A stretch of DNA of 64,000 nucleotides, taken from positions 186,001-250,000 of the forward strand of contig JAENYE010000001.1 of assembly GCA_016841955.1 (NCBI GenBank), given 5' to 3'. The position numbers and the translations under genes are program-made. The notes under the pieces were generated by a model. That model was given only the letters and a program-made list of their open reading frames with translations, was not told the DNA's origin and did no database searches. The DNA is from Methanobacteriota archaeon. Lineage in GTDB: Archaea > Halobacteriota > Methanomicrobia > Methanomicrobiales > Methanoculleaceae. Positions within the stretch are counted from its first letter, which is position 1; each line of letters begins with the position of its first letter. Positions 17,905 through 22,708 of the stretch are shown here, piece after piece.

Positions 17905-18456
17905 ATGTTAAAGCGATGCCTGCTTCTTTTCAGCGGGGGGATTGATTCTACTGCTTGTTTGCACTATTTTTTATCAGCGGGCTTTGCCGTTACACCTCTA
18001 TATGTTGATTTTGGACAGAGTGCACTTGAAAACGAACTGGAAAGTATTTCGTCAATTTCAGATTGGTATCACGTGAGCCCACAGATAGTACATTACTCAT
18101 GCTCGATCGCTCATGGAGCCGGAGAAATCTGTGGAAGGAATGCCTTCTTGATATTTGCAGCACTAATGGCAAATCCAAACTTTTGCGGATCGCTCGCCAT
18201 GGGTTTGCATGCTGGAACTCCATATTACGATTGTTCAGAGAGGTTCGCAAACGACATCCAAAGGGTGCTGGAAGGTTACAGTAACGGCCAAGTTGTTTTC
18301 GAAGCGCCATTTCTGAAATGGAACAAAAAAATGGTGTTACAGTACTGCCTGGACAATGCCGTTCCAGTTGATATGACATACAGTTGTGAAAAGGGGGGGG
18401 ATGAGCCCTGCGGTGTATGTTCGTCCTGTCTCGATAGGAGGGCACTGTTATGTTGA
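17905..18456 (+). CDS. cap9: type IV CBASS QueC-like protein (Cap9)
   Basis: A protein of 183 residues resembling 7-cyano-7-deazaguanine synthase. The ATP-pyrophosphatase loop is SGGIDS (10-15), GRNAFLIFAAL (77-87) matches the QueC core, and the zinc site is C161, C169, C172, C175 in SCEKGGDEPCGVCSSC. It is shorter than housekeeping QueC (about 220-230). In type IV CBASS this subunit accompanies a CD-NTase, and is reported to make a deazaguanine-type adduct on a protein rather than serve tRNA modification. The next gene starts inside its last codons (18450), indicating translational coupling. Confidence 0.88.
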   Translation: MLKRCLLLFSGGIDSTACLHYFLSAGFAVTPLYVDFGQSALENELESISSISDWYHVSPQIVHYSCSIAHGAGEICGRNAFLIFAALMANPNFCGSLAMGLHAGTPYYDCSERFANDIQRVLEGYSNGQVVFEAPFLKWNKKMVLQYCLDNAVPVDMTYSCEKGGDEPCGVCSSCLDRRALLC

Positions 18457-19430
18457 CACGGACCCTAGACATTACTTTTGAGGGGTTCATTGCTGCTTCA
18501 ACGCCTCTGCTGATTCCGTCCTTTTCGAGCCGTGCAGCTATACCTCTTCGACTCAACGCGACTATCGAAATAATGTCTGACATCATTACTGATGTCTCCC
18601 TGATCAGCGCGTATGATATCTACTACTCCGAAAAACCCTTCCCAAAAATTGAATCGCAAAATCTGATATTCATCGATAGCGGCGGGTATGAATGCACCAT
18701 TGACAACAACTTAACCGACATTGGATTCTATAAGCCCTCCCCTAACGAGTGGGATATTCAAAAATATATTGAAGTGATAAATGCATTCTCCACCCCTGTT
18801 CCATTGGTACTGATAAGTTATGATCATCCTCAGCAAAGATGCTCTATAGATGAACAAATCCGATTGGCAGAATGTCTATTTGCTGGAAGAGATGATGTTT
18901 TAAAGGAACTACTGCTCAAATCAGTTGATCACCACCCGATTGATATCGGGCAAATTTCACAAAACATTGAATCTTTACATGAATTCGATTTACTAGGTGT
19001 GACCGAGAAAGAACTCGGTGAAACATTACTCACGCGCATGAAAAACATTGCGCATCTGCGTCTGGAAATGGAAAAAAGGGGACTTGAAATCCCCATACAG
19101 GTTTTCGGAGGTCTGGATCCGATTGCGTCGCCCCTGTACTATCTGTCCGGCGCAGACATTCTTGATGGTCTGTCCTGGCTACGGTATTCATACGGAGAAG
19201 GTGAATTGCATTATATCAACTGTAAAGGGATCGTGAGTAAAGGAATTGAGATAGAGCAAAGAATGATGTGGGCAGAGATTTGCCAAGATAACTACTATGC
19301 TCTCAAAGAATTAGAAAAGAAACTCAAATTGGTTCACGACAAACAGGACATTAGTGTCCTGGGCTATCAAAGAGACTTCTTTGCATCGGCGTATGAAAAA
19401 CTAAACAATGAATTTGGAGGTGTTTTGTAA
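18450..19430 (+). CDS. cap10: type IV CBASS TGT-like protein (Cap10)
   Basis: A protein of 326 residues related to the catalytic barrel of tRNA-guanine transglycosylase. IDSGGYECT corresponds to the SGGFQ substrate motif. VFGGLDP matches the conserved glycine-rich loop before the nucleophile region, and ADILDGLSW places an Asp where the TGT nucleophile sits. It lacks the C-terminal PUA and tRNA-binding parts of archaeal TGT. Its place between the QueC-like and CD-NTase genes is diagnostic of type IV CBASS. It overlaps the upstream gene by seven bases and the downstream start by one. Confidence 0.85.
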   Translation: MLTRTLDITFEGFIAASTPLLIPSFSSRAAIPLRLNATIEIMSDIITDVSLISAYDIYYSEKPFPKIESQNLIFIDSGGYECTIDNNLTDIGFYKPSPNEWDIQKYIEVINAFSTPVPLVLISYDHPQQRCSIDEQIRLAECLFAGRDDVLKELLLKSVDHHPIDIGQISQNIESLHEFDLLGVTEKELGETLLTRMKNIAHLRLEMEKRGLEIPIQVFGGLDPIASPLYYLSGADILDGLSWLRYSYGEGELHYINCKGIVSKGIEIEQRMMWAEICQDNYYALKELEKKLKLVHDKQDISVLGYQRDFFASAYEKLNNEFGGVL

Positions 19431-20365
19431 TGGGTGGTGGAGGAGGTTATTCAGGTTCGTCTGATAATTATAAAGACCATCTTAGACGATCAAGGAGTAC
19501 CTCAGAAGATGCGTCCTTTGAGTCGGATGTAAACAGGATGATGAATGATAGGCTGAAATCCTACAATGATAGAGATTCTGATCAGTACAAAACTCATCTG
19601 GATGACATCAAGGATATTATTGAAGCCAGATTTGAGGGAGCAATAAAACTTAGATTCGGTGGATCAGTTAGTAAGCATACATATGTTGATGGACTGAGCG
19701 ATGCTGATATCCTGATGCTCATCAACAATTCCGAATTAGCCGATTACCCTCCGGATAAGATCCTCTCTTATGTAAAAAGAGAACTTTCTGGGAGATTACA
19801 TAACGTCGAGGAAATTAAAACCGGATCCATGGCTGTTACAATCAAGTTCAGAGACGGGTGCGAGATCCAGCTGATTCCTGCAGTTAGTACGCCAACTGGA
19901 TATAAAGTACCAAAAAAGGATTCTAACGAATGGTCTAAAGTTGTTCATCCCGACAGGTTCGCCCAAAAATTAACCGAAGTAAATCAGTCGTGCGGTGGAA
20001 AAGTAATCCCCGTAATCAAGCTCGCGAAGGGTGTCATCGCGAACCTTCCCGAAGGTCAAAGACTGACCGGATATCATGTCGAGTCTCTGGCCATCGAAGT
20101 GTTCAAGGCATATCCAAAGGACATGCCCAACACTCCAAAGGTGATGCTCAAGTACTTCTTCGAACAGGCATCGAGGCGGGTCACAACTCCTATCACTGAT
20201 AGTTCGGGACAATCAGTACGTACTGATGATTATCTGGAGGGGGCTAACTCACCTGACAGATTAAGAGCACAAAGGACACTTCAACGGATTCATACGAGTA
20301 TGCAGAATGCTGACAATATAAGATCGCGTGATGCTTGGGACAAAATCCTCGGTGAGATCCAATGA
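19430..20365 (+). CDS. cdnE: CD-NTase of type IV CBASS
   Basis: A protein of 311 residues of the cGAS/DncV-like nucleotidyltransferase superfamily, expected to make a cyclic oligonucleotide alarm signal on phage infection. The active-site motif is G77-G78-S79 with D91-x-D93 in LSDADILM. The third acidic site in the usual xDxxP position reads EIQLIPA, with Gln147 there and Glu145 two residues before. An unusual N-terminus, M followed by five Gly and YSG, precedes a flexible Ser/Arg-rich stretch. The start (TAATG) overlaps the upstream stop by one base. The clade letter behind the symbol is a guess; the superfamily call is firm. Confidence 0.9.
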   Translation: MGGGGGYSGSSDNYKDHLRRSRSTSEDASFESDVNRMMNDRLKSYNDRDSDQYKTHLDDIKDIIEARFEGAIKLRFGGSVSKHTYVDGLSDADILMLINNSELADYPPDKILSYVKRELSGRLHNVEEIKTGSMAVTIKFRDGCEIQLIPAVSTPTGYKVPKKDSNEWSKVVHPDRFAQKLTEVNQSCGGKVIPVIKLAKGVIANLPEGQRLTGYHVESLAIEVFKAYPKDMPNTPKVMLKYFFEQASRRVTTPITDSSGQSVRTDDYLEGANSPDRLRAQRTLQRIHTSMQNADNIRSRDAWDKILGEIQ

Positions 20366-21003
20366 GGCATCCATTATTGACAAAATACCTTTTTGCAAAA
20401 ACGATTGTTACTGACGAAGGCTACTCTGACGAGATCCGATGGCAGGATGAATTGCATTTCGAGGATGTCGATGAGAGTACATTCCTGAAAGAGCTCGGGT
20501 GGGTCATCCTCACATCGGGTATGAAGACCGAGGTGATCTCGAACAGATTCTGCAGAATATCAGACTGTTTTTATAACTGGGTTTCCGCGAGGAAAATTTG
20601 GGAAAACTCCCAATCGTGCCTGAATAGGGCATTGCGATTCTTTAACCATAGGTTGAAGATCACGGCAATCATAAGCGCTGCAGAACAAGTTGCTAAAATT
20701 GGATTCGCAAAGTTAAAGCAGGCAATTGAAAAGGATCCTATCAATACTCTTCGTATGTTCAAATTCATCGGACCCGCCACCGCATTTCATTTAGCAAAAA
20801 ATATCGGGATTCCAATTGCGAAACCGGATCGTCACCTTCAACGAATCGCACATCTCGAAGGCTACGATGATGTGCAGGAGTTTTGCCGAGATATTTCAGA
20901 AATGAGTGGCGATAAAATCCAGGTTGTGGATGTTGTGCTCTGGCGTTATGCAACGATAGAGCCGAATTACCTGAGGATCTTTTCAATCATTAATTGCAAT
21001 TGA
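20362..21003 (+). CDS. cap11: type IV CBASS HhH glycosylase-like protein (Cap11)
   Basis: A protein of 213 residues resembling HhH-GPD base-excision DNA glycosylases of the OGG type. A helix-hairpin-helix lies at 133-149 (FKFIGPATAFHLAKNIG), and Asp156 in AKPDRHLQR sits where the catalytic Asp is expected. There are no iron-sulfur Cys. In type IV CBASS this gene accompanies the QueC- and TGT-like genes, and it may act on the modified nucleobase. The start ATGA overlaps the CD-NTase stop by four bases, so it is tightly coupled. Confidence 0.82.
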   Translation: MRHPLLTKYLFAKTIVTDEGYSDEIRWQDELHFEDVDESTFLKELGWVILTSGMKTEVISNRFCRISDCFYNWVSARKIWENSQSCLNRALRFFNHRLKITAIISAAEQVAKIGFAKLKQAIEKDPINTLRMFKFIGPATAFHLAKNIGIPIAKPDRHLQRIAHLEGYDDVQEFCRDISEMSGDKIQVVDVVLWRYATIEPNYLRIFSIINCN

Positions 21004-21014
21004 GAGGGGTTCCA

Positions 21015-21701
21015 ATGGGTGGGAAAACAGTAGAGGACTGCATTAAGGAGGTTAAAAATTTAGAGGACAAGGCCAGTTTATCCAGGGAAATCAGTGCATA
21101 CCAGTATAAAAAGTATAAATGGATATTTTTTCTCTTATCCCTTGCAGTCCTAGTATCTTCAACATCTATTGCCCTTTTAAGTATTGCAGATCCTGCGATC
21201 CTACGTTCATTGTCTTTTCTCCCTTCGGATCAGCAGGATATGAGAAATATCATTGCATTTTTGGGGTTCATAATACTGATAATTTCATTTTCCGATAAAA
21301 TACTGGGCCTGACCGAGTCAATGAATAAGAGCGAACAGGGAGTAAAACTCCTTACAGACTTTATAAGAGATTGTCATACTTTCAGAGATGTCGAGTCAAA
21401 AGATTGCGATGAAACCATGGCTGGCCTGAAATTGGAATCAGTAAAGGAGCAGTATAACTATCTTAACCAGATATTGTCTCTCAACACAGTATCAAATATG
21501 ACGTTCCTGAGAATTAAAAAAGCATATAAGCAGAAGGTGAAGGTTAGCAAAATGCTCGATAAAGATCCAGATATCAACTTAAAAGAGCACTATTTGATGA
21601 GTCTAAAGGACTGGTTTTTCTGGAGGTCACCCCACCAATCGGATTTATCAACGACTGATGAAAAGATAGACGAATCAATGACCCATCAGAAGACTCAATA
21701 A
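21015..21701 (+). CDS. 2TM SLATT-like CBASS effector
   Basis: A protein of 228 residues with an N-terminal amphipathic helix, two membrane helices (about 36-60 and 80-98), and a long charged helical C-terminus. This is the layout of SLATT-type two-helix effectors that open or disrupt the inner membrane when the cyclic nucleotide is sensed. AGAGGGG precedes ATG 21015, and a TTG at 20994 would add seven residues but is badly placed. It is the last gene of the operon and starts MGGK, also Gly-rich. It is the presumed killing arm. Confidence 0.78.
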   Translation: MGGKTVEDCIKEVKNLEDKASLSREISAYQYKKYKWIFFLLSLAVLVSSTSIALLSIADPAILRSLSFLPSDQQDMRNIIAFLGFIILIISFSDKILGLTESMNKSEQGVKLLTDFIRDCHTFRDVESKDCDETMAGLKLESVKEQYNYLNQILSLNTVSNMTFLRIKKAYKQKVKVSKMLDKDPDINLKEHYLMSLKDWFFWRSPHQSDLSTTDEKIDESMTHQKTQ

Positions 21702-21835: not shown

Positions 21836-22708
21836 TCATACAACCTGTTTACAGGTTTCAAACAGGTCTTGAACTGAGTGATAATATGTTTCAAACATTT
21901 TTTGATTCGCGCTTTTCGAAATCTCAATCACAGGTGATTGTGCATTGCGAACTCCATACAGATAGTGAGAGATTAAAGCTCGCCCATTATCTGTTGAAGG
22001 ATCAACAAATTGAATAGAATAACAGGGCAGATGGGAGTACACGTAAACGCTAAAAGTCCCCACGTATTCTGCCTTAGCAAACTCCATTTTTAACTTCTTA
22101 AACTCTTCAATAGTACATTTTATTTTATCCCTTCGATCAGGTTCATTCCGATCATTTTCATACATTACTGCGATGGCTGAATCTGGGTCAAGTAGTACGA
22201 ACTTGAAATTTACACCCTTTCTTAATTGTTCAATGACATGATCTTTAAATTCCACAGGGGACCTGCTATGGAAGTAACTTGCTAAAGTAACCAGAGAAAT
22301 TCCAACTTCAAGATATTCACTCTCAGCTCGATTGAGATGTTCTACTTTTTGCCTTAATTCTAGCCTCCCGCCTTCATAAATAGTTGGTAGATTACTTTTC
22401 AGGGAATAATCAGATAATTTTTTATCTAGTACATCCTTCAAGTCGCTTAGAAAAAATTGACGTTCAATTTCTTTGATAATAATATCATATATCAGAGAGA
22501 CTGCGATAACAGCGGAAAGAAAAATCCCTAACTCTCCAATGAACCTCGAAAACGTGGGATCTGGCACTATCGGTGAGATAAAAGAGATTATTAAACCAAT
22601 AATTATCAGCATTATCGCAATGACAAAATAGTACTTTCGCGACATGCCTCTTGCAAAATGTTTCCACCCACTCTGACCATTATTCTCCATTTTTTCACCA
22701 AAAGTCAT
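21836..22708 (-). CDS. 2TM protein with DUF5919/PLD-like domain
   Basis: A protein of 290 residues with two membrane helices (about 25-47 and 56-76), a coiled stretch, and a C-terminal soluble domain. That domain (YLEVGISLVTLASYFHS, then KGVNFKFVLLDPDS) looks like the DUF5919/PLD-fold domains found beside sensors and defence genes. No HKD motif is seen, so it is probably a binding rather than a nuclease domain. It is convergent with the CBASS operon and shares its AT-rich base use, so it may belong to the same island. Met7 is an alternative start. Confidence 0.6.
   Translation of the reverse strand: MTFGEKMENNGQSGWKHFARGMSRKYYFVIAIMLIIIGLIISFISPIVPDPTFSRFIGELGIFLSAVIAVSLIYDIIIKEIERQFFLSDLKDVLDKKLSDYSLKSNLPTIYEGGRLELRQKVEHLNRAESEYLEVGISLVTLASYFHSRSPVEFKDHVIEQLRKGVNFKFVLLDPDSAIAVMYENDRNEPDRRDKIKCTIEEFKKLKMEFAKAEYVGTFSVYVYSHLPCYSIQFVDPSTDNGRALISHYLYGVRNAQSPVIEISKSANQKMFETYYHSVQDLFETCKQVV

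Follow-up and report, generated by a model that had tools for sequence, protein, structure and literature searches.

The 64,000-nucleotide stretch of archaeal DNA analyzed here (the window) contains at 17905-21701 a complete type IV CBASS operon, recognized by PADLOC model matches, in which the CD-NTase opens with a run of glycines. We consider it very probable (about 0.9, for the assignment and the whole explanation jointly) that this locus is an archaeal member of type IV CBASS, from a Methanomicrobiales-type methanogen, in which Cap9 couples 7-carboxy-7-deazaguanine (CDG) to Gly2 of the cyclase CdnD, Cap10 reads the modified tail and the cyclase becomes signalling-competent. In this scheme, Met1 of the CD-NTase would be removed because a glycine follows, and the host archaeosine pathway would supply CDG. 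Cap9 would then activate CDG with ATP and link it to the free Gly2 amine as an amide, and Cap10, a remodelled TGT-fold protein, would bind the modified tail; the cyclase so modified could then signal to the 2TM effector upon infection. The chemistry, the binding by Cap10 and the need for the modification would be those of the published bacterial homologues, from which they are carried over. The evidence read directly from the DNA comprises the sequence itself, the operon, the conservation of the acceptor, the intact Cap9 motifs and the CDG genes of the host.

A type IV CBASS operon in a methanogen

All five genes of the operon lie on the forward strand. The first (17905-18456, 183 aa) encodes the QueC-like ligase Cap9, by homology the putative NDG-conjugating enzyme (PADLOC QueC PDLC00911, E 2.3e-72; Cap9 of PDB 9nto, E 2.9e-45), followed by the TGT-like Cap10 (18450-19430, 326 aa; PADLOC TGT PDLC00913, E 2.7e-97; Cap10 of PDB 9ntn, E 1.3e-57), likewise by homology the putative binder of the modified CdnD N-terminus. 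The CBASS oligonucleotide cyclase CdnD (19430-20365, 311 aa) matches PADLOC PDLC00790 from residue 1 onward (E 6.9e-116) and NCBIfam NF041117 with 268 bits; the crystallized CdnD chain (9ntn_G/9nto, E 2.6e-69) starts with GGSGG and aligns from Gly2 of the window protein. Downstream follow the OGG-like Cap11 (20362-21003, 213 aa; PADLOC OGG PDLC00910, E 1.7e-86) and a 2TM/SLATT-like effector with an MGGK start (21015-21701, 228 aa; PADLOC 2TM effector, E 4.2e-20; NF033632 SLATT_4, weak). The features of type IV CBASS present here are thus a CdnD-type CD-NTase with Gly2, Cap9 with intact motifs, Cap10, Cap11 and a transmembrane effector, together with CDG genes in the host. A DUF5919-containing membrane protein is encoded on the reverse strand at 21836-22708, converging on the operon.

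Deazaguanylation of Gly2 is already published for bacteria. In two reports (PMC11996544, PMC13279940), Cap9 is the enzyme that attaches CDG to the N-terminal glycine of the CD-NTase and Cap10 binds the tail so modified; NDG is required for defence, and a G2D exchange in CdnD prevents conjugation and abolishes defence. The sequence-only reading named a deazaguanine attached to the CD-NTase N-terminus by the QueC-like protein, which agrees with the biochemistry and structures in both reports. Its proposal that the Gly-rich start beside a QueC-like gene is the acceptor gains weight from the window proteins being clear homologues of the crystallized Cap9, Cap10 and CdnD. Compared with the published system (Wassarman et al. 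2025; PDB 9ntn, 9nto), the window has the same genes, Gly2 acceptor, Cap9 motifs and Cap10 partner, but its host is an archaeon, its cyclase starts with MGGGG instead of the commoner MGGSG, and its modification is predicted.

The N-terminus of CdnD and its conservation

The open reading frame at 19430-20365 (+) begins MGGGGGYSGSSDNYK, i.e., M-G-G-G-G-G-Y-S-G, with the five glycine codons of residues 2-6 at 19433-19447 (+) and the predicted deazaguanylation acceptor Gly2 at 19433-19435. The ATG at 19430 is the sole ATG, GTG or TTG that lies after the preceding in-frame stop and before the CdnD core; together with the overlapping Cap10 stop it reads TAATG, and a Shine-Dalgarno sequence, GGAGGTG (19416-19422, +; SD score 7), precedes it at the normal spacing of 7 nt. 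The window contains a single ATG-(GGN)4 motif against 0.14 expected, and the organism's own 2.43-Mb genome two, the second of which opens no listed ORF. The single possible start codon, the overlap, the Shine-Dalgarno sequence and the rarity of this motif together make the N-terminus both certain and unusual, so that the MGGGGG start claimed from the sequence is real, with no alternative start codon.

A profile scan of 84,980 genomes yielded 50 further CdnD loci, others being added from relatives and plasmids. In 50 Cap10-CdnD loci from archaea and bacteria, the CdnD start was called blind to the protein as the start codon nearest to the Cap10 stop, and 45 of these starts read MGG, continuing at residues 2-5 as GGSG (31), GGGG (12), GGSS (1) or GGTG (1). 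By the same kind of rule, Gly2 was found in 0/46 Cap10, 0/41 effector and 0/42 Cap11 starts (0/129 in total; Fisher p about 5e-37), the background rate thereby being that of neighbouring operon genes and not of the proteome. Position 4 is Ser or Gly and the following ~40 residues vary freely, which defines the conserved unit as Gly2-Gly3, usually within MGGSG, and not as the pentaglycine. An outcome named beforehand as counting against the proposal, type IV CD-NTases without a conserved Gly-rich N-terminus, is therefore not what the alignment of N-termini returned, since M-G-G is kept in 45 of 50 loci; the run of five glycines, by contrast, is not conserved and the suggested pentaglycine unit falls away. 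Three loci start otherwise, namely MASSK (L033), MAGGGG (L070) and MSGSGG (L054), and this A2 or S2 indicates that Gly2 is not absolutely required. In a Thermoplasmata locus (L024, 4940-4990), no canonical start codon precedes GSGGG; the GSGGG follows an AUA, and an AUA (or AUU) start would preserve Gly2. In L049 the blind rule took a TTG, while an ATG upstream gives MGGGGSS. Scans of viral contigs with CdnD and a tblastn search of phages returned no matches, and tblastn of plasmids gave one full locus, from Pseudanabaena.

The glycine run could instead be a mere flexible linker or a favourable translation start carrying no covalent modification, tails rich in Gly and Ser being common and the remainder of the CdnD tail variable. 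We hold this to be improbable, as the conservation is confined to residues 2-3 and has no counterpart in the other operon proteins, and the homologous complex 9nto was crystallized with NDG attached (PMC13279940). Equally improbable in our judgement is that Gly2 bears a different group, a preQ0 amidine made by ArcS-like chemistry or by the host QueC, in place of the CDG amide made by Cap9. Archaea do make preQ0 for archaeosine, and related MGGG CdnD proteins exist in genomes devoid of Cap9 (L057/G311), so that MGG on its own is no proof of Cap9 chemistry. Against this, the window Cap9 carries all motifs listed for the Cap9 cluster (PMC13329287), i.e., SGGIDS, FGQ(x)5E, RN, H(x)4YxDCxxxF, PF(x)4K and CE(x)6CxxCxxCxD; its catalytic, CDG-binding and Zn motifs are intact, and its Y107/D109 occupy the alignment positions of Y115/D117, the pair that recognizes CDG in the published enzyme (PMC13279940). 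One gene cluster of the genome also holds queD, queE and a canonical queC distinct from Cap9, from which CDG should be available. These observations support Gly2 of the window CdnD as the predicted attachment site of 7-deazaguanine via Cap9, and we infer that deazaguanylation takes place in this organism; acetylation of the archaeal CdnD N-terminus could occur instead, which would count against it. In four actinobacterial loci (L053, L062, L065, L067), the H(x)4YxDC base-recognition motif of Cap9 is altered while the CdnD partner still starts with MGGSG, possibly reflecting a different base.

The MGGK start of the effector (ATG-GGT-GGG-AAA at 21015), pointed out in the sequence-only reading, is present, but the idea of the effector as a second NDG substrate was rejected as highly improbable: this start recurs solely in L022, a 91%-identical relative, Gly2 is found in none of the 41 effectors downstream of CdnD under the blind rule, and both matched methanogen effectors differ (MNENEK in L008; MIDLTD or MTDVEH in L023).

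TGT-like genes and their Gly2 partners

Two loci with an MGGG CdnD (L056, L057) hold no Cap9, Cap10 or Cap11, and the genome of L057 (95% complete) has canonical QueC only. Where these genes are missing, an unannotated 359-aa TGT-like gene of no evident kinship to them lies directly upstream of both cyclases (L057:3829-5831; L056:2353-4355, a possibly mis-binned locus labelled Acholeplasmataceae but near-identical to that of Methanocorpusculum). A homologue of this protein in another archaeon precedes a ThsB-type TIR, MGGGFRRDRES, with a GGAGG Shine-Dalgarno sequence and then an 8xMP membrane protein; its best matches, though weak, are TGT models (PF01702, E 0.017; PADLOC PDLC00912, labelled TGT, E 0.012). 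Searching with PDLC00912 and an alignment of TGT-like proteins revealed matches in 13/393 sampled genomes of the phylum, 58/391 of the haloarchaeal class and 8/199 of the window's order; this family without an adjacent Cap9 is common in haloarchaea and methanogens. By hhalign, the pooled set aligns weakly with canonical TGT (pairwise, 76%, E 2.3e-5) and the methanogen subset alone gives no match, while Cap10 reaches 84% against canonical TGT. Kinship with Cap10 was rejected: hhalign gave a probability of 0.5% or less and the loci hold no Cap10 match, so that the family is not placed under Cap10. An AlphaFold model of the L057 protein, built from two sequences, had a pLDDT of 37, and a viral-contig scan with the family returned no matches.

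In most of the 77 TGT-like loci read, no more than about 15 nt separate the TGT-like stop from the start of the next gene, which opens M-G (MGGG, MGDG, MGTD, MGSG, MGNR, MGNT, MGLG, MGKG or MGGR). With starts computed from sequence, 42 of 61 distinct partner N-termini have Gly2, compared with 1/86 other co-directional gene pairs in the same loci (p about 1e-20). Neither Cap10 nor Cap11 was found in these loci, and the sole QueC is the canonical one in L101, a haloarchaeal locus where a TGT-like/CdnD (MGGG) pair has canonical queE and queC (L101:154-1732) about 2.5 kb away. The partners have unrelated main domains and share Gly2 and a long low-complexity tail. They comprise CD-NTases (23 loci, all Gly2), DsbA/thioredoxin-like proteins with long acidic tails (18), a small unknown family (14), ThsB-type TIRs (7), a short MGGR family (4), and a HipA-like protein and an anti-phage nucleotidyltransferase (one locus each).

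The TIR partners (L081:5445-7361, L114:4771-6387, L207:2656-4416, L208:2422-3903, L210:1956-3935, L211:2115-3604, L107:4754-6733; L208 and L210 from the window's own genus) match Pfam ThsB_TIR. Gly2 is present in 5/7 by the blind rule and in 7/7 if the start with the better Shine-Dalgarno sequence is taken in L081 and L208, the L081 start overlapping the upstream gene by 88 nt. An 8xMP membrane protein, and not a classical ThsA, follows the M-G TIR in L081, L107, L207 and L210. Three loci offer an internal control: in L114, L208 and L211, a Gly2 tail of ~40 aa is carried by the TIR that follows the TGT-like gene, whereas a second TIR of the locus, beside a caspase gene and not behind the TGT-like one, opens at its domain (MRQPKIFISHSW, MSKHYHLFISHSW and MSKQHHLFISHSW, respectively). 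A Thoeris-like pair of ThsB TIR and caspase-like genes adjoins the TGT/MGG-TIR genes in these loci (L114:3265-4755, L208:3988-5347, L211:3711-5079).

Within the small unknown family, the N-terminus tracks the TGT-like subclade and not the partner, nine MPRKGG/MTRKGG loci falling inside one well-supported TGT-like clade and five MGN loci outside. The TGT-like subclade of L198-L206, whose small partner starts MPRKGG/MTRKGG and not M-G, forms a natural contrast group. When 68 TGT-like proteins are placed on a tree, two changes suffice for the Gly2 label, compared with 12 for shuffled labels, with the ambiguous starts of the DsbA subgroup M[FVA]xF[ML]GSYSGG labelled at the ATG of MGSYSGG except in the MFVFLGS members, of which there are four, not Gly2 because no ATG precedes the Gly. 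The DsbA/thioredoxin-like partners start M-G or M-x-x-F-[ML]-G (L109, L110, L111, L112, L154-L161, L163, L172, L175, L178, L184, L187), and no obvious effector was seen in their loci.

These patterns suggest that the Gly2 tail may be a portable N-terminal tag with Cap9-independent chemistry. We give about even odds to a wider proposal built on them, in which a second, Cap9-less TGT-like family in Halobacteriota would act on unrelated immune-type partners, the tag being set or read either by the host's canonical QueC or by the TGT-like protein, e.g., as an ArcS-like preQ0 amidine. In that case, type IV CBASS would form a single branch of a broader base-tagged, TGT-controlled defence class, including a TGT/MGG-TIR/8xMP system paralleling CBASS.

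Relation to known defence systems and meaning

Apart from type IV CBASS, three groups of systems resemble these loci. The qatABCD system (Gao et al. 2026, PMC13279940) shares with the window a QueC-family enzyme and a partner whose tail is long and flexible and whose Gly2 is essential (QatC is QueC-like and QatB starts MGTS), but QatC has remodelled CDG residues and extensions, QatB is no CD-NTase and a TGT-like protein is absent. The PADLOC TGT family PDLC00912 and the QueC-less TGT-like loci likewise place a TGT-labelled gene directly upstream of an M-G partner, in many cases a CD-NTase accompanied by a membrane effector; unlike the window, they have no Cap9 and no Cap10-family match, and their partners also include TIR, DsbA-like, HipA-like and uncharacterized proteins. 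In Thoeris, ThsB is a TIR as are the TGT-linked ThsB_TIR partners, which add the MGG tail, a TGT-like gene and a following 8xMP, whereas ordinary ThsB neighbours lack the tail. Nothing relevant on a link of TGT to TIR or to archaea was found in the literature searched, outside of which most subscription journals lie, and as far as seen there, the wider association of Gly2 with TGT-like genes, located outside the window, is unreported.

The system in the window adds an archaeal member to a published mechanism and places nucleobase-protein conjugation in a methanogen. As acceptor, enzyme motifs and CDG supply are all found in the one organism, archaeal deazaguanylation becomes directly testable. 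If the partners of the QueC-less TGT-like genes are base-tagged as well, a TGT-like family present in about 15% of the sampled haloarchaeal genomes would gain its first function, and protein deazaguanylation, or a chemical cousin of it, would be a general switch over several classes of immune enzymes.
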